Below, one piece after another: positions 4,549-20,142 of a DNA stretch of 43,827 bases. Source of the DNA: Bacteroidota bacterium (GTDB lineage: Bacteria; Bacteroidota; Bacteroidia; Cytophagales; UBA9547); the NCBI GenBank assembly GCA_004293915.1, contig RDZG01000094.1, positions 1 to 43,827 of the forward strand, written 5' to 3'. A program made the translations under genes and the position numbers. Position 1 is the first letter of the stretch. Each line of letters opens with the position of its first letter. The notes beneath the pieces were generated by a model. It worked only from the letters and a program-made list of their open reading frames with translations. It ran no database searches and was not told the DNA's origin.

Positions 4549-5238
4549 TTATTTGTACCTACTATTAAACTCATCTACATAGGTTCTGCCAATGGGGATT
4601 TCTTGGTTTTCAATAAAAATAGTGAGATTCCGAACGGCTTGAATTTTGCTAAAAGGTAGAATAAAACTTCGGTGTACGCGTATAAAATCATTGGAAGGGA
4701 GTTTTTCAACCATGTCTTTCATAGTCATTCTAGTGATAATCGTTTTGCGGTCTTTGATATGAATTTTTAAATAATCGGCCAAGCCTTCTATATAAAGTAT
4801 GTCTGCTAAAGCAATTTTTATCAAGCTAAAATCGGCTCGAATAAATATGTATTTCTCCGCAGTTTGGTCTTTCTTTTGAATGAAATCATAAAACTCTTTG
4901 GCTTTTTGAGTAGCTTGTTCAAACCGCTTTTGGCTTATGGGTTTAAGTAAATAATCAATCGCATTTAGTTCATAGCTTTTTGCTGCATATTCGCTAAAAG
5001 CAGTACTAAAAATCACCATTGTATTTTGTTCTAGTGCTTCTACTAATTTTATTCCTGTCATCGAAGGCATGTGTATATCTACAAAAATCAAATCAGCAGG
5101 AAATTTCCGCAGGTGCTTTAAAGCCTCCGTTGGCTGTGTAAACGTTTTTTCTAATTGTATGAAATCAGTCTTATCACACAAAGCTTGAATCACCTTGAGT
5201 GCCAAAGGCTCATCGTCTATCGCTATCGCTTTTATCAT
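4549..5238 (-). CDS. LytTR-family response regulator
   Basis: 229 residues. The N-terminal receiver domain (1-120) shows D8/D9, phospho-acceptor D54 in IFVDIHMPS, T79 and K99 in LLKP. The C-terminal LytTR DNA-binding domain (about 128-229) carries the VHRSFILPFSKI core. The start overlaps the stop of the kinase gene by 4 bases, so the two are translationally coupled. It should be phosphorylated by the adjacent LytS-like kinase and control transcription. Targets are unknown; the adjacent genes give no clear regulon. A 93% identical copy of part of the LytTR region lies at 155-238. Confidence 0.92.
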   Translation of the reverse strand: MIKAIAIDDEPLALKVIQALCDKTDFIQLEKTFTQPTEALKHLRKFPADLIFVDIHMPSMTGIKLVEALEQNTMVIFSTAFSEYAAKSYELNAIDYLLKPISQKRFEQATQKAKEFYDFIQKKDQTAEKYIFIRADFSLIKIALADILYIEGLADYLKIHIKDRKTIITRMTMKDMVEKLPSNDFIRVHRSFILPFSKIQAVRNLTIFIENQEIPIGRTYVDEFNSRYK

Positions 5239-6260
5239 TGAAGATTTATATGCAGTGAAACTCGAAAACTTTGTACAGTATCTTTTATAGTTAGCATGTG
5301 CTTAGTCGGATAAATCAATTGCAAGCGATGCTTGGTGTTTTCTATGCCTAATCCACTACGTTCAGAAGTTTCTTTTTGGGTTTGAACTTTATTATTTATC
5401 ACCTTCAAATGAAACTCAGCTTCTTTTACTTCAATCAAAATGTAAATATTACTATCTTCTTCAGAATTCACACCATGTTTAAAACTATTTTCAATAAAAG
5501 GAATCAATAGCATGGGAGCAATTTTAAGCCCCGAAAAATTTCCTTCCGTTTTATATTCCAGTTTTATTTTGTCGTCCAACCTCATTTTTTGCAGCTCAAT
5601 AAAATTGTCTACATAAGCAATTTCATCTTCTAAATCTACAACATCATTTTGAGTTTCACTCATAGTATACCGCATCATTTCCGATAATTTAGCTACCATT
5701 TCGGCTGTTTGAGGCGATTTTTCTATAGCAGTAGCATATATACTATTTAGTGTATTGAACAAAAAATGTGGATTAATTTGCGATTTGAGCGATGCAATCT
5801 GTGCCGATAGTTTTTCTTGCTCTATCTGTTTCATTTTAGTAAGTAAAGCTAAACAATAAGCAGCAACAAATGAAATAAGCAACATCAAAATATTATTTGC
5901 AGCAGCAATTGGTTTAATACTATGGATTATAGGGTTGATTTTTTCCAATTTTTCAGGATTAAAATCAAAATAGTAGAAAACTAAATTGGTAAAAAACAAT
6001 ACACAAACGATACTCCCTAAAAACAGCAAAATGTATTTCAAATACTTTTTTGTAAATAAAAATATAGGAATAAGAAAAAAGTAATTGATATAAAAAATTA
6101 GTATAAATCCTACTCCCGAAACTATTAAAGGGATAAATTTCAATTCTTTACTATCCAAAACCAAAGATTGTAAAACCTGATAGGTAGATAAAAAAGGCAC
6201 CAACATTAATAACATCCATGCTAATACGTGTACAGAAATAATGATGAGTTTATTTTTCAT
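5235..6260 (-). CDS. LytS/YehU-type sensor histidine kinase
   Basis: 341 residues. Four hydrophobic segments (about 5-25, 43-68, 74-97, 118-140) form the membrane part, with no recognisable extra sensor domain. A short linker leads to the His_kinase motif NPHFLFNTLNS, with H165 as the predicted phosphorylation site. The N-box is PFIENSFKHG (N258) and the glycine box is GLGIENT (303-309). This is the standard Bacteroidota partner of a LytTR regulator and is joined to it by a 4-base overlap. The signal is unknown. Confidence 0.92.
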   Translation of the reverse strand: MKNKLIIISVHVLAWMLLMLVPFLSTYQVLQSLVLDSKELKFIPLIVSGVGFILIFYINYFFLIPIFLFTKKYLKYILLFLGSIVCVLFFTNLVFYYFDFNPEKLEKINPIIHSIKPIAAANNILMLLISFVAAYCLALLTKMKQIEQEKLSAQIASLKSQINPHFLFNTLNSIYATAIEKSPQTAEMVAKLSEMMRYTMSETQNDVVDLEDEIAYVDNFIELQKMRLDDKIKLEYKTEGNFSGLKIAPMLLIPFIENSFKHGVNSEEDSNIYILIEVKEAEFHLKVINNKVQTQKETSERSGLGIENTKHRLQLIYPTKHMLTIKDTVQSFRVSLHINLQ

Positions 6261-9938: not shown

Positions 9939-11177
9939 TCAATTCGTCAATTCTCCATTATCATTAACTTTTAATAAAGCAATCAAACTTGAAGTACCGC
10001 TAGAACGAGTTGATTTTATCGACATACTTGCCAAAATAACATATCCTTTATCAGAAGTTTCTTTTATACTCACAGCCTTGTCAGTATCTAATCCTCCAAA
10101 TGTTTTTTGCCAAACAACTGAACCATCTTTTTTTATTTTTACAATATAAATATCAATTCCACCACCATTACCTTTGGCATCAACAGTTGTGGCTTTTGAG
10201 CCTACCAAAACATAGCCCGAACCATCCGAAAGTTCTATCACAGAACTGCCTGTAGCATTGCTTCCATCCCCGTATTGTTTTAAAGGCAATGTAATTTGAG
10301 ATGCATTAAAAGGACTACTATATTTTATTTCCATCAAATAAGCAGCTGAGAAATTGGTTGATTCATTGATACTTGAACCAATAAAAATATAACTGTCCGA
10401 AAATTGTGATTTCACAATTTGAGTTGCATTAATAGTTGGCTTTGCATTTAACTCACTTTCGCCTTGAGCCAATCTACCTATCAGCGATAAGCTACTATCT
10501 ACCCTCACATATTGTATTCCTTGGTCGTTTCCATTTCCTGATGTGCCAACCCAAGAGAACAAGTTCTCGCTTTCATATATCACACTATTAGCCAAAGTAT
10601 TCAAATTATCGATGTTGTAAGTTGCAGGATTTGCCGAAAAACCACGTGGAATACCATCAAAATTTGTCATCAACAAAAATGCTCCTTTGGTAGTGTTTGT
10701 TACATCTATGCCACCAACAAGCAGATATTTGTTGTTTTTTGTATCTATAGCAACATCTATTCCAAAAACATTCTTAGGTCTAAAATATTTTTTAGTCCAC
10801 AAAGTATCTCCCTTGCTATCCATTTTTACTAAATACGCTCCCGTAAGAGTAGCAGAAGCATAAGTGCCTACTGCAATAAAACCACCTTCAGGTATAACTT
10901 TTATAGCTTTCCCAGAATCAATACCAATGCCACCATATCTTTTTTCCCAAATTTTATTTCCAGCAAAATCGGTTTTGGCAATATACATATCCGCATTGCT
11001 TGTTCCAATAATTACAAATCCATCAGATAAAACCTGAATTTGACTTGCAAAGCTATCTTCGTCACTTGCTCCAAAATATTTAATAAACCCTTTTTCATAA
11101 TTTGGTTTCACATTTAGCCCATTGCACGACCACAAGCCTACAATAAAAACCACGATTATGTATTTAGCAACCTTCAT
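9939..11177 (-). CDS. predicted lipoprotein with propeller-like repeats
   Basis: 412 residues. A hydrophobic N-terminus ends in a lipobox, LWSC, with C18 as the lipidation site. The body has recurring units of the form 'DGFVIIGTSN.D.YIAKTDFAGNKIW' and 'GYVLVGSKA...DIYIVKIKKDGSVVW', which alternate a glycine-rich G-(T/S) turn and a K-x-D-x-x-G-x-x-x-W turn. This pattern fits a beta-propeller of the kind seen in many secreted Bacteroidota proteins. It is the last gene of the five-gene operon, 12 bp after the barrel gene. It is likely held at the outer membrane and may bind ligand or partner. The function is not known. Confidence 0.7.
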   Translation of the reverse strand: MKVAKYIIVVFIVGLWSCNGLNVKPNYEKGFIKYFGASDEDSFASQIQVLSDGFVIIGTSNADMYIAKTDFAGNKIWEKRYGGIGIDSGKAIKVIPEGGFIAVGTYASATLTGAYLVKMDSKGDTLWTKKYFRPKNVFGIDVAIDTKNNKYLLVGGIDVTNTTKGAFLLMTNFDGIPRGFSANPATYNIDNLNTLANSVIYESENLFSWVGTSGNGNDQGIQYVRVDSSLSLIGRLAQGESELNAKPTINATQIVKSQFSDSYIFIGSSINESTNFSAAYLMEIKYSSPFNASQITLPLKQYGDGSNATGSSVIELSDGSGYVLVGSKATTVDAKGNGGGIDIYIVKIKKDGSVVWQKTFGGLDTDKAVSIKETSDKGYVILASMSIKSTRSSGTSSLIALLKVNDNGELTN

Positions 11178-11189
11178 TTTAAAAATTTA

Positions 11190-12284
11190 TTATTCTGAAA
11201 CTATTTTTTTTCTTACTTTCTTTACTTTATAAAAAGAGTAAATATATCCTGTATTTATAAATACACTGTTTATGGCAAAATCATCTTCAATATAACCATA
11301 AGATGTTAATCTAGAATTTACAGTTTCGTATCTTCCAGCCTGTTTTACCAAATTTGATAAGCCATATTGATATCTTGCATCGATAAACAAATGTCCATAT
11401 CCAATTTTAAACATTAAACCAGCACCAACTAAGGCAAAAGTATTTATAGCATTTCTACTTGATTTTACATCTACAGCAGGTCCAGAGTATTCTACTGTTG
11501 CGTTTTCATCATCTTTTATGCGATTCAGACTTTGTGAGGAAGAAAGATTTAAGTTTATACCTCCTCCAACACGAATATATGGTTTCAATTTCCCATCTCC
11601 AATAATATACTTTAAAGACAAAGGCACTTCCAACAAAGTTTGAGATTCTAGAACTGTTATTTTGCTATTAGAAAAAGCTGCTTTTTCTGCCTTTAGTGCT
11701 CTAGTAACTAATTGAACTTCAGTAGTTAAAAATAATTTCTTTTTAAGATTAAAATCAGCAACTCCACCTAAATTGATTGAAAATCCAGTCGAATTTTTTG
11801 TTGTGTTGTTACCATCGCTATTACCAACATTATAATCCCAAACATTTCGAGCTCTAGAAGCATTTACTCCAATCGAAAGCCCAGCAGAAATCCAAGGTAT
11901 TACATTAAATGATTCGTAAAGTTTGATATATTCAATTGGATCTAAAAGTTTGTTTGGTTTATAATCTGGTTCAAAAACCAATAAATCATTCATCCATTTT
12001 TCAGCATTTTTTTGATCATCTAAATACAAAAAAGACAAAATCATCAAACGATATGCTTGCATTTGTTCTATTTTTGAAAATTCTGTTGAACTTACGCAGT
12101 TTTCGATTTTAGATTTAATCAATTCAATATTGCCTTTTTCATAAGCTTTTTGGGCTTCTTTAAGCGATTGACTACACGATGATGGTGTGTTTTGAGCAAC
12201 AATTTGCCCAAAACAGACAAAACTCATAAAAACGACAATCGTATTTTTAAGACGTTTTTTTTGTAATATATTTTTTATAAACAT
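11190..12284 (-). CDS. outer-membrane beta-barrel protein with N-terminal helical domain (PorT-like)
   Basis: 364 residues. A signal peptide ending near GQIVAQ is followed by a TPR-like helical stretch (about 35-125, with AQKAYEKGNIELI and AYRLMILSFLYLDD). A beta-barrel follows, with alternating strands such as AGLSIGVNASR, LFLTTEVQLVTR, YIRVGGGINLNL and HLFIDARYQYGL. A similar helical-plus-barrel layout occurs in Bacteroidota operons coding for envelope sensors. It lies 13 bp after the STAND gene and 12 bp before the lipoprotein gene, so it is almost surely co-transcribed with both. Confidence 0.75.
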   Translation of the reverse strand: MFIKNILQKKRLKNTIVVFMSFVCFGQIVAQNTPSSCSQSLKEAQKAYEKGNIELIKSKIENCVSSTEFSKIEQMQAYRLMILSFLYLDDQKNAEKWMNDLLVFEPDYKPNKLLDPIEYIKLYESFNVIPWISAGLSIGVNASRARNVWDYNVGNSDGNNTTKNSTGFSINLGGVADFNLKKKLFLTTEVQLVTRALKAEKAAFSNSKITVLESQTLLEVPLSLKYIIGDGKLKPYIRVGGGINLNLSSSQSLNRIKDDENATVEYSGPAVDVKSSRNAINTFALVGAGLMFKIGYGHLFIDARYQYGLSNLVKQAGRYETVNSRLTSYGYIEDDFAINSVFINTGYIYSFYKVKKVRKKIVSE

Positions 12285-12297
12285 TTATAAAAATAAT

Positions 12298-15200
12298 TTA
12301 TTCGATTTGTTTATTTTTTCCTTCTGGCAAACCAACACAAGTTTGTTCATATTTTATATCTTTTGCTACAAATAATTTCCACTCATCGGTAGTCATATTT
12401 CGTTTCAAAACTGGGCAAACTTTTGAAGCCATTTCTTCCATATCTGTTGGATATCTTCGAATTAGATTATCAACTGATCCAGTAATAATTTCTTTACCAT
12501 CAGGGCTAAATGCCACAGACCACACCCACGAATTATGATCACGAAGTGTAATTGGTTGCTCATTTAAGAAATCAATATTCCAAAGTTTCACCGAACCATC
12601 AAAACTTGCCGAAGCCAACACTTTGCTTGTGGGATCAAATTTAAGGTCATTAATCCTTGCTCTATGCCCAGATGGATTAGCAAATGGTGCATTTTTATTT
12701 GTATCCCAAATTTTAATATTTCCATTTTCGTCTCCAATGGCTAAATACAAACCATCTGGACTATAAGCCAGCGAATGAATTTTTTTCATGTTTTTGATTT
12801 TTAAATCCAAAACAGCAGTGCTTCCTCCAGCGGTTGGCCACAAAAATACTTTACCAAAATCATCACCACCAGCCACAAACGAACCATCTGGACTAATTGC
12901 AATGGTACGAACCCTATTTGGTGTTTTAGCTACTAAATAATATTTATTTGTTTCTAGATTTCTCAAATAAATTGAACTATCCTCCCCTACTGTTACTAAA
13001 TTTACATTATCAGGAGTAAAATCAAACGACCATATTTTGCCTTTATGTCCAAATAATTTTACAGGTTTTGCGTTCGGATTTTTCAAATCAAATACTTGAA
13101 TAAACGACTCTTCTCCCGCTACTGCCATCCATTTATCGTTTTTACTAATTTTTAAAATTCGATTAATAAATGGATTGGTATAAAATTTAACATTAGTATA
13201 TTTTTCGCCTTGTTTAACCCATTTTAAGATTTTTCCATCGCTACCGGTTGTATACATTTCGTTTCCACTAGAAGTATAGGCAACCGAACGTACGGCATCT
13301 GTATGTCCTTTTAAACTATTATGTTCATCGTGAAACAAATGTTTATTGGCATAATATAAAGCATCATAAATATCATGATTATGCGGATTTCCACCAAAGA
13401 ATTTATTAAACTGAAAAGCTTGTTGAGCAACCAATGCACGCGTTGTTGTATCATACACTTGTAAAGATTTCACTGCCATAGCTTGTGCAATAGACAACAA
13501 ACGTTGTTTTTGAGCATCGGAAGCACTAAGTTCTGCAAGTTTTGTTTGCTCCATTGCTTTTTGCTCACTAGCTAATGCCAACAAACGTTGCTCTTGTGCA
13601 ATTTTTGATTGCTGTTTAGCTAATTGTTCGCTTCGTAAGGCTATAGCTTTTTGTTTATTTGCCTCTTCAGCAGATAAACGAGCCAATTCGGCTTGTTTAT
13701 GTGCTTCTTCAGCCGATGCAGTTGCTTCTTTTTCTTTAATCTGAGCCAATTGTTGGGCTTTTATTGCATCCTTTTCTTTTTGCAATGCAATTGTACGTTG
13801 CTTATTTGCCTCTGATTTTTGAATTTCGGCTAATTGCGTTTGTCTATCCGCTTCCAGTTTTTGGATATATGAAAACACTAATGCCACTAAAGCAAAAATA
13901 GCAATAGCAGACATAAATATAGCAATTCGTCTCGATTGACGAAGTCGCTTTTTCTGCATTTCTTCTTTTACACGCTGTTCTGTTTCAAAGGCTTTTTTGC
14001 TTGTTTCCAAAAACACCATCGTACGCTCATAAGCAGGATTATAACGCTGTCCCCAAACCAAAGTTGGGTTGTTTTTTTCTTGCCAATTCAATGCTAATTG
14101 TAAATCAGGCGGTCTCCACATCCCTGATTTTCCAGTTTGGTATTTTGCAGAAGCATCAGAAAGTCGCAAATACATTTCAACAGACTGTCCTTCTTCATCA
14201 ACCCAGTTTTTCAATCTTACCCAAATTCGCATCAAAGACTCATGAGAAATATCGATAATAGAAGCTGCATTTAATTTTGTACCAAAAGGAGGCATTAATA
14301 AAGAGCGACCTTGTTTTCGAAAAACTTCAACAATTTTTATAACCTCATCTTCAGTACAATCAGCAATTTGAGCCATTGTATTTACACGAGTTGGTCTGCG
14401 AATACCATCGTTGTCGCCAGTTTTTTCTGTCAAACATTTGAACATTGCTGCACAAATTTCTTTCTGGCGTGTATCTAATTCATCATAAGCTTCATTTGCG
14501 TGTTGTGATAATGCTCCCGACATTGTGCCAATTGCTTCATAATGTTGCAAATCATTGGGTTCGTCATCGTCATGATTTTCTACCCAATAATCAAAAGTAC
14601 GCATCAAAGAATGGGCAAGAATGGGCAATTGGTCTGGATTATCTCCTAAATCGCTCAAAACTTGTTGCAATAATCGTGATGAAATTTTAGAACCTGCAAC
14701 CGAAATTGGACCCACAATTGCCGCACGTTTTTGTTCGCGAGTCATTTGTGGAATCAAATAATTACTCTGATTGATTAATTTAGTTAATTGTGGATATTGA
14801 GCACAATCACCAATAAAATCAGAACGCATAGTTATGGCTACATAGATTGGCGTATCGATGCTTTCAATTGTTTCTACCAATAAATTTACAAACGCCAACG
14901 ATTCACTCAATCCTGAACTTTCTTCCGTTTTTTTGAAACGAAATAACTCTTCAAACTGATCTACAATCAATAATATATTTTTATTTTCTGCCTCTGTATA
15001 TCTACTTACAGCTTCTTTCAAGCCCAATGAACTGCTTCGCAAAAGCGTAGAAATCATTGTTTTTTTAATTATTTTATCATTTTGCTGATATGTGGCATAA
15101 TCTTTATCTTTTTTCAATATTGATTCAGCAAGGTTATCAATGGGTCCACCGCCAGGTCGAGTTACAATAACATCCCAATTGGTACCGATTTTTGTTAAAA

Positions 15201-15450
15201 ATCCACCATATAATATAGGTATTACACCACAATAAATAAAAGAAGATTTACCAGAACCCGAAGAACCAATAATGGCACAAAATTTATTATCGGATAGTTT
15301 TCTTAATACCTCATCGCTTTGTCCTTCTCGTCCAAAAAACAAATGACTTTCGTCCATACCAAATGGTCGAAGCCCGGGAAATGGATTTTTATATTTTTTG
15401 GTTACAACTGTTGTAGTTAAAACGGTTGCGTCATTTTTTACTTCTTCCAT
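12298..15450 (-). CDS. nSTAND1-type NTPase - TM - coiled coil - WD40 protein
   Basis: 1050 residues. N-terminal STAND NTPase: the entry motif NPFPGLRPF with FFGRE, Walker A GSSGSGKS (62-69), Walker B ILLIVDQFEELF (159-170), and downstream winged-helix and arm regions with SHESLMRIW (402-410). A single hydrophobic segment (about 509-529) follows basic residues (KKRLRQSRR). An Ala/Glu/Lys/Gln-rich coiled coil spans about 530-660. Seven WD40-like repeats occupy about 712-1010, for example GHTDAVRSVAY, GHKGKIWSFDF and DHNSWVWSVAFSPDG, enough for one complete propeller. STAND proteins are NTP-driven switches that oligomerise on signal. It follows the TIR gene by 3 bp. Positive residues before the TM segment suggest N-inside topology. 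Confidence 0.9.
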   Translation of the reverse strand: MEEVKNDATVLTTTVVTKKYKNPFPGLRPFGMDESHLFFGREGQSDEVLRKLSDNKFCAIIGSSGSGKSSFIYCGVIPILYGGFLTKIGTNWDVIVTRPGGGPIDNLAESILKKDKDYATYQQNDKIIKKTMISTLLRSSSLGLKEAVSRYTEAENKNILLIVDQFEELFRFKKTEESSGLSESLAFVNLLVETIESIDTPIYVAITMRSDFIGDCAQYPQLTKLINQSNYLIPQMTREQKRAAIVGPISVAGSKISSRLLQQVLSDLGDNPDQLPILAHSLMRTFDYWVENHDDDEPNDLQHYEAIGTMSGALSQHANEAYDELDTRQKEICAAMFKCLTEKTGDNDGIRRPTRVNTMAQIADCTEDEVIKIVEVFRKQGRSLLMPPFGTKLNAASIIDISHESLMRIWVRLKNWVDEEGQSVEMYLRLSDASAKYQTGKSGMWRPPDLQLALNWQEKNNPTLVWGQRYNPAYERTMVFLETSKKAFETEQRVKEEMQKKRLRQSRRIAIFMSAIAIFALVALVFSYIQKLEADRQTQLAEIQKSEANKQRTIALQKEKDAIKAQQLAQIKEKEATASAEEAHKQAELARLSAEEANKQKAIALRSEQLAKQQSKIAQEQRLLALASEQKAMEQTKLAELSASDAQKQRLLSIAQAMAVKSLQVYDTTTRALVAQQAFQFNKFFGGNPHNHDIYDALYYANKHLFHDEHNSLKGHTDAVRSVAYTSSGNEMYTTGSDGKILKWVKQGEKYTNVKFYTNPFINRILKISKNDKWMAVAGEESFIQVFDLKNPNAKPVKLFGHKGKIWSFDFTPDNVNLVTVGEDSSIYLRNLETNKYYLVAKTPNRVRTIAISPDGSFVAGGDDFGKVFLWPTAGGSTAVLDLKIKNMKKIHSLAYSPDGLYLAIGDENGNIKIWDTNKNAPFANPSGHRARINDLKFDPTSKVLASASFDGSVKLWNIDFLNEQPITLRDHNSWVWSVAFSPDGKEIITGSVDNLIRRYPTDMEEMASKVCPVLKRNMTTDEWKLFVAKDIKYEQTCVGLPEGKNKQIE

Positions 15451-15453
15451 AAT

Positions 15454-16914
15454 TTATTTTTTTAAGAAGTTTAATAATTCATTTTGTTCTCCTTCGTTGT
15501 GTTGAAAAACAGAAACTTCAAATTTTTGTACTGAATTTAATCTTGTTTTAGCATTTTTGCCAACTATCATTGCTTTTCCAATTTCAGCTTTTGTTCTACC
15601 TAAGCCTGGTGCCTTTAATAAATCTAAAAACTTCATTTGAACCCACAAATCATTTACCGAATTTAGATAAATAAACCCGAAATCGCAAATTTTAAGATTT
15701 TCTAGATGTGTTTCTCTCAACTCCATCAAATTTCCATCAAAACGTGGACAAATAACATCATAATTCTGATATTTTAAAAAATCAGTTATTTGTTTGGCTT
15801 CATACTCATCTATTTTGTCATAAATAAGATATACTATTTTAGATGAGTCTGTTTTTTTATTTTTTATAGATTTAATTGTTTTCTCAAATCCTAAAAGAAA
15901 CTGCAAAACCATAGTTTTAAAGCCTTCTATTGGCGATTGGATAATCTCTGAATCTTCTGTAGATTCAATATCCCTTCTGATATTATCTAAAAATATTTTC
16001 TGTTTATCGTCAGAAAATTCAGCATCAGGCGAAATCCAAATCAATCGATTAAAAAACGAATCCGAATCAGTAATCACACTTGACCAAACATTTTTATGTT
16101 CAGATGCTAATTGATTTTGGAATTCTAATACCGAAATTTCCGTTCCGGGTATTAAATCTCCGTGATAATCTCCAATTAAATGTATCGAAAGCGAACATTC
16201 TTCTAAATCTTTTTTAATGGCAACTTCCAAACCAGTTTTTGTGGCAGGCAAAACTCTATCAGGCAAAACACGAAATCCATGTCTAATTAATTCGCGTTTT
16301 ATATTATCTCTGTGCATTTGCAAATCGGATCCAACTTCTGCAAGATAAACCGTTTTTGCTTTTGTATTTTTAGAAACTGATATATCTAATTGTTTGCTAT
16401 TTTTAATTGCAGTTGCAATATCGTAAGCCAAATCTACCAATTTTAACCAGAATTTGCGTTGAGCATCTGTACTAAAAAAATCCTCAAATTCTTTTACATC
16501 ACCCGAAAAAGGATCTACATCATATAAATTATAACTAAGCAAACTCAAAATTTTATCTGGCTGCTCTGTTGGCAAAACTGGAAATTTAATTACTTTAAAA
16601 AAATGATTTGCAAATCGGCTTGGGTCGTTTGATATATAGTCTTCGATTTCTTCCAAACAAGCGGTGCTTTTTACATACTCAGGCGATAAGATAGAAACAA
16701 ATACAGCTGATTTTATCAACTCAGATTTAACAGGTTTTTCATTGTTTCCATAAGCTAAAATAATAGGTTTTTCGCCTAAAATTTGCTCAATTATAACATC
16801 TAAAAATTTTCTAAAACTATCCACCCAACCTATTTCAGAATTTGCAACAGGCGAATTATCTGCCTTAGCAAAGCTGATGTATAAATCGTAAGGGTATTTA
16901 TTTTGATTTGACAT
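15454..16914 (-). CDS. protein with three TIR-like domains
   Basis: 486 residues with no signal peptide or TM segment, so probably cytoplasmic. Domain 1 (about 7-130) is TIR-like: YDLYISFAKAD, then SAVFVSILSPEYVKSTACLEE, in which E89 sits at the usual catalytic-Glu spacing from C86. Domain 2 (about 185-290) starts KTVYLAEVGSD and has RDNIKRELIRHGFRVLPD and SLSIHLIGDYHGD, resembling TIR-like or DUF4062-like modules. Domain 3 (about 357-455) starts KIVYLIYDKID and has DFLKYQNYDVICP and ICDFGFIYLNS. TIR domains either act as NAD+ hydrolases or cyclases or serve as adaptors. It is encoded between the NTT-like transporter and the STAND NTPase, with gaps of 18 and 3 bp. Catalysis is unproven. Confidence 0.75.
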   Translation of the reverse strand: MSNQNKYPYDLYISFAKADNSPVANSEIGWVDSFRKFLDVIIEQILGEKPIILAYGNNEKPVKSELIKSAVFVSILSPEYVKSTACLEEIEDYISNDPSRFANHFFKVIKFPVLPTEQPDKILSLLSYNLYDVDPFSGDVKEFEDFFSTDAQRKFWLKLVDLAYDIATAIKNSKQLDISVSKNTKAKTVYLAEVGSDLQMHRDNIKRELIRHGFRVLPDRVLPATKTGLEVAIKKDLEECSLSIHLIGDYHGDLIPGTEISVLEFQNQLASEHKNVWSSVITDSDSFFNRLIWISPDAEFSDDKQKIFLDNIRRDIESTEDSEIIQSPIEGFKTMVLQFLLGFEKTIKSIKNKKTDSSKIVYLIYDKIDEYEAKQITDFLKYQNYDVICPRFDGNLMELRETHLENLKICDFGFIYLNSVNDLWVQMKFLDLLKAPGLGRTKAEIGKAMIVGKNAKTRLNSVQKFEVSVFQHNEGEQNELLNFLKK

Positions 16915-16932
16915 AATATGTTAAAAATACAA

Positions 16933-19900
16933 TTATTTAGCTTCTACTGAAAAACGTGTAGTTATTTTATTTTTTTTACTAACAACTTCTATAAGTTCTT
17001 TTGCTATTTCAAAATTATCGTAAATCTGTTCGTAAAACTGATCTTTGTCTATTTTAAACAAAAAACAATCTTCTTCAGCCAAAACCGAAAACTGATTTTT
17101 ATCTTCTTCAAGTATAAGCGTTTCTCCTATTAATTCATGGTTTGCAATATCATCAATTTTTTCGTTATTAATATTAATCTTACTTGCTGCACCAACCACT
17201 AAAATATATAATGGCGAATCACCATTTGCATCGGAATGTAAAATAATTTCGCCTTTTTTGAATCGTACAACAGAAATTAGTTCAATAAATTCTACTAAAA
17301 TCACACCTGTTACATTCTCAAATGCTTCTAATGATTTGAGATAAAATATTTTTTGAATTCTTCTATTATAGTGATGTTCTTTTGGATGATCAATGGATGG
17401 TAATAATAAATAATCAAGTTCATCTTTTATCAATTCAGTAAGTCTGCCAGAATTTTTATGATAACTAGCCGGATTTTTTGAGTAAATAGCCCAAGCAGCA
17501 ACTTCTCTAATTAACGGATCTGGATTAAATAAATTTGCAGTTAAATCATCACACATAGGTGCTTCTTCCAGATGTCCATAAGCATGCAATGCACAAGCTT
17601 TTGTCCATTTATTTATACTGTTATAATCGCGATTTATAATTTGTTTTAAAACTTCTACTTTATCTAATTTCTGTCTAGGGAAAAAGCTTTGCAAACGCTC
17701 ATTTCGTTCGGCTTGCGTAATATCTTCAAAAAGCGGAAACAAAATAGGTTTCAAATCTTCAGCCAAAAACACATCAAGTAATTCGATTGCATAAACAACT
17801 CCTTCGTTTCCAGATTCAATATTTTCTTTTACTAATTTTATGGCTTGAGGATCATAAATCAAAGCCAAAAGCATATAAATATTTTCGAAATTAAATTCAA
17901 TTTCTTCTTCTAAAGCTATTTTCAAAGGTTTAGCAAACTCATTTTCTGGTATTTCCGTTTGAGCCGCTACTATCCAAGCCGAATTTCCAATATCGGTTTC
18001 AATAGCCGATTTTATTCTGGTTATTTGGTCGTTTTGAGGCTTAAATCCACAATTTGTTAAACACAACAATACATTATTAACAATTTTTTTGTTTGGTAAA
18101 TCTATTTTGTTCCATAACAAAGAAATCACTCTATCACCACCAATTCTGCCATATATTTGAACAATTTTTTCTTGTATTTGCTCAACTTGACCTGTTTTGT
18201 AAAATGCTGCTTCTAGTGCTGGCAAAACTTTTTCGCCAAACGAAATAAGTACCGATGCAGCAGTATTTGTAAAGGTATAAGAACCTAAATATTCTATCAA
18301 AACTGCCCACGTTTCTGGCTTATTTATTTTTGCACATGTCAAAATTGCTTCTTGTCTTACTCTTACTTCGGAATCACGCAAAAGCAACATGATTTGAGGT
18401 AAATACACATCGTTATCAGTTTTCCCAAGCAGATAGCATGCCATTAATCGATCTTCAACTCTTCGAGATTTTACTAAACTATAGGTATAATTTGGTACAA
18501 TTTCTACTGAATCTGTTTCTTTAAGCGAAATGAGTGCTTTTTCTGCGAGTTGTTTTGTAAGAGAATCTGAATGCGTATTTTTTATATTTTTTATCTGGTC
18601 AATGGCTTCAATTGTGTTATTAACTTGGATTCGTTGAATAGCATAGTCCCTAATTTCAGGATTAGAATCGTCATTTATTAATTCTATAAATTTTTGTTTT
18701 GCTAATAATGGTTCTAATTTTTCCATTAATTTCAAGGTATATAAACGAGTAGAACTGCTAGATTTATCAAGTTCTTTTTTCAATACATCTGTAACTTCAT
18801 AATCTTTTGATGTCAAAAACTCATCATTTCCTTTCGAAGCAATTAATGTATTTGTCAAAACTTTTCTATATTCAAAAAACAAACTTATCACTATAAAAAA
18901 GTAAGCCAAACAAATCCCAACTAAGAAATATGAATAAAATATCAAATCAAAAAATTTCATAAACCCAAGTGTCGTCAATAAAATACCAGCCGTAAATGCC
19001 GAAAACTCTTTAAAAAATCCTTCAACTTTGGTTTGAATATCATATCTTGTATTACTACTTAATGGGATAAACAAGGCTTTAACAATTGGATCTTCAAAAG
19101 CTTCCTTAAGCGATTGTAAAAACATTTTGCTCATTGCCAAAAACAAAAAGAATAATATAAAACTACCAGCTTCAGCTGTATATCCAAAAATAGTGCCGAT
19201 TATTGAGGCTAAAAGCGCAAAAACCCCCAAAATAGATGGAATTAAAATTAATGAAACTTTTGGTCCATAGTTTTTGATAGCCCAATCTGCAACGAAAGTT
19301 TGCATCAAAAAGCTAACAACTGTTACTAACCCTCCAAAAACACCCAAAAAACGAGCTAAATCATTGATGTCAGTATATTTTTGGGTTGTTACATTCAAAA
19401 AAGAAAATTCCAAAAATATAGTTGCAACCACAGATGCCAAAAACAACATACAAACCATGCGTATGTATGGTGTTTTAATCATTTCTGTAACACTAGCTTT
19501 TTCTGATTTTACTGCTCTAATTGATGCATTGTTCCCTTTGTTATGATAAGCTTTAACAAACCAAAGCATAAAAACGAAAGCTAAAATGCCACTTAAAAAG
19601 CTAGTAATAAAAAATTTATAAATATCTTGTACATAATCAGAAACAAAAAACACCACGAAAAACGAAATAGCAGTTGCAATCATTTGTCCTTGATCAACAG
19701 TGTTTGTCATGTGTTTTTCTCGTTTTAGCGAAAATGAACGAGAAACTGTGCCATAAAAACAAAGTATAAAAAGTGAGTTTATGGGTCCTAAAAACAAATA
19801 AGACAAAAACTTAAAATAATAAATATTGTAAAATTCAAGTCCAATAAACATAATTGCTGCAACCAATGAAATAAGCAAAAAACAAATCATTGCAAGGGTG

Positions 19901-20142
19901 GTAAACTTTATTTTTCGTTGAAAATAGCCGAATATATAGGTAAAAGTCATACCTGTTATGCCAGAAAAAATAGGTAGAATTGTTAAAAATTCTTTCCCAA
20001 ATGTATCTAGAAAAATAGAACTTGCAGCCACATCATAGCTAACTATAAAAACTCCAATACAAAACGAGTTTGCAAGTAAAAGCAACACTGGGCTTTGCTC
20101 AGATGAATCTATATCTAGAAGTTTTTGTACAAAATTTGCCAT
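16933..20142 (-). CDS. NTT (ATP/ADP translocase)-like membrane protein with HEAT repeats and cNMP-binding-like domain
   Basis: 1069 residues. The first 430 or so form about 12 TM segments and resemble the nucleotide-transporter (NTT/Tlc) or MFS fold, with a conserved-looking block FLGPINSLFILCFYGTVSRS. A middle region (about 440-820) is HEAT-like, for example DDSNPEIRDYAIQRI and RDSEVRVRQEAILTCAKI. The C-terminus (about 940-1050) is a cyclic-nucleotide-binding-type beta-roll (FKKGEIILHSDANGDSPLYI, then IGETLILEED). The phosphate cassette keeps the GE but has KNQFSV where CAP has ERSAWV, so the phosphate-contacting Arg is missing. First gene of the five-gene operon. True transport activity is uncertain; it could be a regulatory membrane protein. 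Confidence 0.8.
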   Translation of the reverse strand: MANFVQKLLDIDSSEQSPVLLLLANSFCIGVFIVSYDVAASSIFLDTFGKEFLTILPIFSGITGMTFTYIFGYFQRKIKFTTLAMICFLLISLVAAIMFIGLEFYNIYYFKFLSYLFLGPINSLFILCFYGTVSRSFSLKREKHMTNTVDQGQMIATAISFFVVFFVSDYVQDIYKFFITSFLSGILAFVFMLWFVKAYHNKGNNASIRAVKSEKASVTEMIKTPYIRMVCMLFLASVVATIFLEFSFLNVTTQKYTDINDLARFLGVFGGLVTVVSFLMQTFVADWAIKNYGPKVSLILIPSILGVFALLASIIGTIFGYTAEAGSFILFFLFLAMSKMFLQSLKEAFEDPIVKALFIPLSSNTRYDIQTKVEGFFKEFSAFTAGILLTTLGFMKFFDLIFYSYFLVGICLAYFFIVISLFFEYRKVLTNTLIASKGNDEFLTSKDYEVTDVLKKELDKSSSSTRLYTLKLMEKLEPLLAKQKFIELINDDSNPEIRDYAIQRIQVNNTIEAIDQIKNIKNTHSDSLTKQLAEKALISLKETDSVEIVPNYTYSLVKSRRVEDRLMACYLLGKTDNDVYLPQIMLLLRDSEVRVRQEAILTCAKINKPETWAVLIEYLGSYTFTNTAASVLISFGEKVLPALEAAFYKTGQVEQIQEKIVQIYGRIGGDRVISLLWNKIDLPNKKIVNNVLLCLTNCGFKPQNDQITRIKSAIETDIGNSAWIVAAQTEIPENEFAKPLKIALEEEIEFNFENIYMLLALIYDPQAIKLVKENIESGNEGVVYAIELLDVFLAEDLKPILFPLFEDITQAERNERLQSFFPRQKLDKVEVLKQIINRDYNSINKWTKACALHAYGHLEEAPMCDDLTANLFNPDPLIREVAAWAIYSKNPASYHKNSGRLTELIKDELDYLLLPSIDHPKEHHYNRRIQKIFYLKSLEAFENVTGVILVEFIELISVVRFKKGEIILHSDANGDSPLYILVVGAASKININNEKIDDIANHELIGETLILEEDKNQFSVLAEEDCFLFKIDKDQFYEQIYDNFEIAKELIEVVSKKNKITTRFSVEAK

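Follow-up and report, generated by a model that had tools for sequence, protein, structure and literature searches.

A conserved six-part gene set in the Cytophagales as a candidate trans-envelope machine for a giant type IX-secreted surface protein

We analyzed 43,827 nucleotides of DNA (hereafter, the window) from a Bacteroidota bacterium of the order Cytophagales (assembly GCA_004293915.1, contig RDZG01000094.1), in which five packed minus-strand genes encode, in this order, a membrane protein that combines a nucleotide transporter-like (NTT) domain, HEAT repeats and a cyclic-nucleotide-binding domain (cNBD), a triple TIR-superfamily protein, a STAND NTPase with a WD40 propeller, an outer-membrane barrel protein and a lipoprotein. 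Comparative data established these five as part of a six-part unit, the sixth gene of which is unlinked in this genome and encodes a giant surface protein with a sorting domain of the type IX secretion system (T9SS). We propose with moderate confidence that the six proteins form one trans-envelope machine controlling the giant, which would act as an adhesin or contact sensor. This is the best of several readings, each of which is weighed below.

The five open reading frames (ORFs) and the gaps between them (18, 3, 13 and 12 bp) were reproduced as given in a preliminary description of the window, which had also suggested from gene order and domains that the genes are functionally linked. We compared loci from 45 genomes with NTT or TIR matches. 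In 27 of these, belonging to 11 families and including distant lineages, the genes for the NTT, TIR, STAND, barrel and lipoprotein parts lay in this order on one strand. Conservation on this scale excludes chance adjacency, and the suggested unit passed the test of gene order. The count of 27 admits one extra gene between NTT and TIR (G167, G265, G279, G292 and G264), a STAND gene divided into two ORFs (G302) and a TIR gene interrupted by a stop (G264). Among the other 18 genomes, five had fragments at contig ends or genes divided over contigs (G003, G205, G232, G441 and G338), two gave no lipoprotein match (G260 and G344), two had NTT-TIR without STAND in the stretch examined (G276 and G295), one had NTT and TIR each alone (G271), three were remote relatives (G150, G181 and G251) and one carried a variant operon (G547). 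In G490 and G523, TIR lay alone elsewhere and the remainder together, with a single NTT operon (L164:14728-16209; L166:3016-4455), and in G332 and G370, NTT lay elsewhere and TIR-STAND-barrel-lipoprotein-giant together. In these four genomes and in that of the window, parts are unlinked yet co-retained. Such co-retention, together with the order kept in 11 families, contradicts a reading of the locus as neighboring genes without joint function, which is hardly credible.

We further examined co-occurrence in 390 genomes sampled from the order of the window genome, with cut-offs of E ≤ 1e-85 for the best NTT match, E ≤ 1e-10 for TIR and E ≤ 1e-90 for the full giant module; for the latter, weaker and mostly partial matches among 151 matched genomes were dropped, leaving 72. 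The best two candidates per genome (up to four in the TIR search) were scored, so per-genome places and adjacency counts are lower bounds. NTT was found in 72 genomes, TIR in 61 and the full giant module in 72. The giant was accompanied by NTT in 67 genomes and by TIR in 58; NTT and TIR coincided in 59, and 57 genomes of 12 families had all three. Counted by genus (n = 129), NTT and giant each occurred in 39, both in 37, TIR in 30 and all three in 29. Fisher tests on co-occurrence take no account of relatedness and carry no weight in the argument. Five genomes had NTT without a giant (G251, G297, G344, G391 and G413), and five had a giant without NTT at this cut-off (G314, G407, G423, G481 and G547). 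In at least 46 of the 61 TIR genomes, TIR lay on the same strand as an NTT gene and no more than 2.6 kb downstream of it; similarly, no fewer than 51 of the 105 giant modules (42 genomes) shared the strand of a listed NTT or TIR gene and were at most 40 kb downstream of it. The remaining 54 modules, partly on other contigs, include that of the window genome.

A phylogenetic tree of 37 STAND sequences indicated that descent of the operon was mostly family-wise: f1, f82, f85, f78 and f81 were each confined to one side of a branch. Family f2 required three changes (second copies, and the grouping of G487 and G505 with f74/f80), pointing to paralogy or transfer in that family. In three families, a gene for a HAMP-SpoIIE (PP2C-type) phosphatase was found between NTT and TIR: L158:10728-12761 (f78), L149:6236-8188 (f79) and L049:4420-6465 (f26). 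Family f26 (G205) is outside the order and has NTT-SpoIIE-TIR-STAND up to the contig end. A variant operon (L175:1221-16513 in G517, and L176 in G547) begins with an 840-aa match to the NTT profile that has no Pfam match, continues with a protein of about 1063 aa, identified in L175 as Reg_prop-SpoIIE, and ends with TIR-STAND-barrel-lipoprotein.

The preliminary description recovered five real genes and missed the sixth partner, which is encoded outside the window. Downstream of the lipoprotein gene, related loci usually carry a very long ORF; in the window, this place is occupied by a PEBP gene on the opposite strand. Complete giant copies measured 2,141 to 5,125 aa in eight loci and 1,525-1,530 aa in L138 and L140, and open frames reached 6,775 aa. 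Giants differed in their N-terminal parts and shared, across lineages, a C-terminal module of about 740 aa that ends in a T9SS sorting domain. Por_Secre_tail (PF18962) scored above cut-off in all four giants scanned, and TIGR04183 in three of them, which assigns the scanned giants to the T9SS type A substrates. The same four also contained Ig_7 (in two) and Big_5, fn3 and PKD_4 (in one each), and Reelin-type and Omp28 matches were sub-threshold. The giant ortholog of the window genome, 2,215 aa, is encoded on a separate contig (C96) and showed 41% identity over query residues 5-2212; its C-terminus aligned with those of the scanned giants, and its T9SS domain was assigned from this alignment. 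No homologs of the other five genes were present in the 19.9 kb of C96 examined. Contig C52 (L076:393-9269) encodes a second, more distant giant of 2,958 aa that shares the C-terminal module, and the T9SS protein SprA is also encoded in this genome.

The association with giants could instead mean that the other genes encode a dedicated assembly, anchoring or retention apparatus with no sensing role, in which the STAND ATPase would power placement of the giant via the barrel and lipoprotein. The long ORF after the lipoprotein gene in most five-gene loci and the giant modules downstream agree with this idea, as do the outer-membrane type of the barrel and lipoprotein and the retained NTPase motifs of STAND. 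It is unlikely nonetheless, since it gives no role to the cNBD, the NTT domain or the triple pseudo-TIR protein, nor to the SpoIIE phosphatases of some operons, and since type A substrates, in the passages of PMC12618676 that deal with them, normally rely on the general PorV shuttle and end in static anchoring or release. Because PorV serves such substrates, the presence of dedicated partners has to be explained in some other way, and the simplest is that they control or read out the giant; the SpoIIE phosphatases and the cNBD likewise favor signaling over plain export.

Table 1. Genes and predicted domains of the operon in the window
Feature	Position	Strand	Basis
NTT-HEAT-cNBD protein, 1069 aa	16933..20142	-	Pfam; NTT profile against solved plastid ADP,ATP carriers; cNBD profile against PKG chains
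Membrane (NTT) domain, ~residues 1-430	18853..20142	-	Profile A11 positions 115-426 aligned to 9j3j chain 155-489
Best HEAT_2 stretch, residues 558-621	18280..18471	-	Pfam
Cyclic-nucleotide-binding domain, residues 959-1040	17023..17268	-	PF00027 E 2.8e-9
Triple TIR-superfamily protein, 486 aa, predicted catalytically dead	15454..16914	-	Model, structural matches, active-site residues
TIR domain 1, residues 6-174	16393..16899	-	VIA-align Z ~13 to MyD88 and SPARTA TIR domains; Glu position mixed
Domain 2, DUF4062/DNPH1-like, residues 185-342, Gln266 at catalytic Glu position	15889..16362	-	VIA-align Z 13.8 to DNPH1
Domain 3, TIR/deoxyribosyltransferase-like, residues 356-486, Lys428 at presumed Glu position	15457..15849	-	VIA-align Z ~12 to 7o62 (deoxyribosyltransferase) and SARM1 TIR
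nSTAND1 NTPase-TM-coil-WD40 protein, 1050 aa (TM, transmembrane)	12298..15450	-	Pfam; Walker residues
nSTAND1 NTPase domain, residues 23-440, predicted cytoplasmic	14131..15384	-	PF20703 E 2.9e-92
Single predicted transmembrane helix, residues 509-527	13870..13926	-	Hydropathy peak here in 37/37 genuine STAND homologs
Long helical coil, ~residues 530-655, proposed periplasm-crossing	13486..13863	-	Alignment A7 read by eye
WD40 propeller, ~residues 713-1001, predicted periplasmic	12448..13314	-	PF00400 E 1e-43; location from hydropathy
Outer-membrane protein: signal helix, helical (TPR-like) domain, 8-stranded OmpA/Ail-type barrel	11190..12284	-	PF13568 E 3.5e-15; model; Foldseek
Lipoprotein, predicted beta-propeller	9939..11177	-	Cys18; SBBP/LipL53 model

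The STAND protein carries an nSTAND1 domain with Walker motifs and a C-terminal WD40 domain, and is a member of the STAND NTPases on these grounds. Its Walker A and B residues were invariant in 14 rows of alignment A7. One of 38 candidate homologs (L015, 950 aa) was a false match to an ABC-type protein and was left out; Walker A was present in all of the remaining 37, and the exact motif DQFEELFR in 32. Between NTPase and WD40, each of the 37 had a single strong hydrophobic helix; in 36 the positive charge was greater on its NTPase side, and in one the two sides were equal. From the position of the helix and this charge asymmetry, the NTPase is predicted to be cytoplasmic, and the coil and WD40 propeller periplasmic; at about 125 residues, the coil could be long enough for the periplasm. 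The barrel protein matched OMP_b-brl_2 in Pfam. In its model (pLDDT 70), a signal helix precedes helical hairpins at residues 36-121 and then eight strands, and the nearest Foldseek matches were Ail and OmpA. The lipoprotein had no Pfam match; its Cys18 was invariant in 12/12 aligned members, and it matched the SBBP beta-propeller (SBBP/LipL53) model at E 8e-7, under the model cut-off. Crude counts of lipoboxes (33/40) and barrel signals (29/43) include ORFs with wrong starts and were set aside.

In the NTT protein of the window, HEAT_2 and cNMP_binding scored above Pfam cut-offs, and the membrane part gave a weak MFS_1 match alone in the single-sequence scan. Among 15 family members, HEAT_2 was present in all, cNMP_binding in 12 and TLC (PF03219) in one. 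A profile built from the 15 N-terminal parts matched two PDB sequences at E ≤ 1e-5, both plastid-type ADP,ATP carriers (9j3j, E 1.7e-19; 9j3n, E 9.6e-18), bearing out the earlier label "NTT-like". A gene for an MscS-type channel lies upstream of NTT in G511 (L141:17015-17911). NTT-HEAT-cNBD fusions are a described class, widespread in bacteria and of unknown function, and some NTTs carry NAD, according to the relevant passages of Major et al. 2017 (PMC5381601). NTT homology and NAD transport by some NTTs would suit a nucleotide or NAD uptake or salvage locus, where NTT imports nucleotides bound or released with help of the surface proteins. This is improbable: no nucleotidase or SusC/D gene is among the conserved six, the barrel is modeled as an 8-strand OmpA/Ail type, and STAND and TIR would have no part to play.

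The TIR protein of the window gave sub-threshold TIR_2 and DUF4062 matches in Pfam, and the copy of a congener (G005) exceeded the DUF4062 cut-off (28.6 vs 24.7 bits). In a model computed with six sequences (mean pLDDT 74, pTM 0.43), the protein folds into three alpha/beta domains of TIR/DNPH1 type; with the congener's match, this agrees with its earlier description as triple TIR-like. Foldseek with the whole model returned weak, mixed matches (best E 9.6e-5), and domains were assigned from VIA-align matches instead. We reduced 57 TIR sequences to 44 distinct ones by identity over the last 300 residues and analyzed their catalytic positions; those in domains 1 and 3 were placed by the WCxxE motif, which we take to mark the catalytic Glu. 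In domain 2, the catalytic-Glu column held Gln in 39, Glu in three divergent proteins and a gap in two. In domain 3, Trp was present in 44/44 and was followed four residues further by Lys in 41/44. The domain 1 column held Glu in 10/44, including the window protein, and otherwise Leu, Asp, Asn, Arg and others. None of the three domains has a conserved catalytic Glu across the 44 proteins. At position 78 of the Pfam DUF4062 profile, which we read as the catalytic Glu, 5/5 stand-alone DUF4062 proteins of the order had Glu and 8/8 members of the operon's TIR family or its paralogs had Gln. NAD cleavage is therefore unlikely, and the TIR protein is probably no NADase. The change to Gln would fit binding without cleavage, hence our proposal of a sensor or scaffold. 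Three f2 genomes (L059, L060 and L061) encode a TIR paralog of about 533 aa next to two proteins of about 1,350 aa that are related to STAND. A relative outside the order (G182, L057:7139-15175) has TIR-STAND accompanied by one TrkA-N and one GH18 protein; because its first TIR domain retains a WCxxE-like motif, it may be an active, perhaps immune, cousin.

These residues bear directly on a hint in the preliminary description, which called TIR and STAND modules known parts of immune and stress-signaling systems that act on NAD or nucleotides. As an antiphage or abortive-infection system, the TIR protein would destroy NAD after sensing by STAND, like Swarozyc, Avs and other TIR-STAND systems. 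TIR/DUF4062 and STAND are immune modules elsewhere, DUF4062 proteins are TIR-like NADases with a catalytic Glu in the account given by a 2026 preprint (PMC13174449), and some operon proteins do retain Glu, at the domain 2 site or in the domain 1 column. Set against this are the near-uniform Gln and Lys of domains 2 and 3, with Glu kept by the stand-alone DUF4062 proteins, as well as the mostly family-wise descent and the outer-membrane and secreted partners. In addition, a scan of PADLOC-DB, whose 2023 version predates newer systems, gave cross-matches of the cNBD part to PycTIR-type effectors and marginal P-loop matches, and nothing else. The flanks scanned are of housekeeping type and do not resemble a defence island; their genes include PFK, PEBP, a thioredoxin/rhodanese protein, a carA-type carbamoyl-phosphate synthase subunit, SecY and ribosomal protein L2. 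We rejected defence as the main reading on these grounds and consider it quite doubtful. The earlier remark that this is not a described defence system held: the component families are known, and the six-gene set itself matches no system in PADLOC, nor is a five- or six-gene system of this kind described in the open-access (PMC) literature searched, a search outside which most subscription papers fall.

In the control model that we favor, an unbroken chain from cytoplasm to surface can be drawn from the predicted domains and models. At the cell surface, the beta-propeller lipoprotein, along with the small barrel and its periplasmic helical domain, would hold or read the giant exposed there. 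STAND would pass through the inner membrane a single time, with the NTPase left on the cytoplasmic side and the coil and WD40 propeller extending over the periplasm as far as the outer-membrane parts. In the cytoplasm, the triple pseudo-TIR protein could cooperate with the NTPase, either as a scaffold or as a non-catalytic sensor of nucleotides or NAD, and the NTT-HEAT-cNBD membrane protein may provide a nucleotide-responsive input to the NTPase. Ligand- and ATP-dependent switching of STAND would then set the state of the giant, or contact made by the giant would be signaled inward. The boldest version, which we put forward tentatively, is an envelope-spanning machine that reads nucleotides or NAD through dead immune enzymes, in which the membrane-crossing STAND ATPase switches the giant T9SS surface protein; the three pseudo-TIR domains, the NTT carrier as a receptor and the cyclic-nucleotide domain would be its sensors.

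Several observations weigh against control of the giant by such a machine. The periplasmic location of the WD40 propeller is a prediction from hydropathy alone. With their type A sorting domain, the giants can take the PorV route and require no dedicated export machine. Second operon copies in G023, G167 and G224 (L044, L045 and L048) have no TIR and keep NTT, STAND, barrel, lipoprotein and a giant, and 14 of the 72 giant genomes have no TIR match. Moreover, when the NTT cut-off is relaxed to E ≤ 1e-30, a giant module is absent from 64 of the 132 genomes with NTT, so the tie concerns a single NTT branch and the wider NTT-HEAT family has other uses.

Near the operon in the window, a LytTR response regulator gene lies beside a His_kinase gene (positions 4549-6260). 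We also considered a connection with the C. hutchinsonii cellulose locus (CHU_1276-1280) and dropped it, without an alignment, on finding CHU_1279 listed as a cellulose-binding protein.

Bacterial STAND and TIR proteins have been studied mostly as parts of phage defence. Their tie to a T9SS giant suggests a second use, in ATPase-driven surface signaling across two membranes; if the proposal is correct, immune-type modules would have been re-used for surface behavior, for example adhesion, gliding or cell-cell contact. The NTT-HEAT-cNBD fusions gain a partner set and a testable setting in gliding organisms. Those described in PMC5381601 have the same three-part architecture as the window protein; the passages of that paper on them discuss each fusion by itself and mention no operon that joins it to TIR, STAND, barrel, lipoprotein or giant.

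Among known systems, the T9SS adhesins SprB and RemA, with their PorV or PorP/SprF shuttles (as covered in part of PMC12618676), likewise pair a large surface protein with a T9SS sorting domain. However, the sorting domain of SprB is type B and that of the operon giants type A, and the SprB/RemA systems have no counterpart of STAND, TIR or NTT. The operon barrel, with its OMP_b-brl_2 match, 8-strand model and type A giants, is not a PorP/SprF shuttle. The DUF4062 NADases Swarozyc and TEP1/NWD1 share the family of TIR domain 2, and the plan outlined for TEP1/NWD1 in PMC13174449, DUF4062 with a NACHT ATPase and WD40, is here divided between two genes; in contrast to both, the operon family mostly has Gln for Glu, a STAND protein predicted to span the membrane, and outer-membrane and secreted partners. 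Other STAND/TIR conflict systems, in the parts of PMC7159879 and PMC10907252 that treat them, have different partners. In Pycsar, the cNMP-binding part of PycTIR resembles the operon cNBD, whereas here TIR and cNBD are on separate proteins and the catalytic Glu is not kept; no cyclase adjoins them among the window neighbors scanned, neighbors in other genomes being mostly unscanned. To our knowledge, LapD/LapA has no protein family in common with the operon, and the likeness would be one of function alone. In that system, an inner-membrane nucleotide sensor acts on a giant adhesin under control by cyclic nucleotides, an outline similar to the one proposed here.

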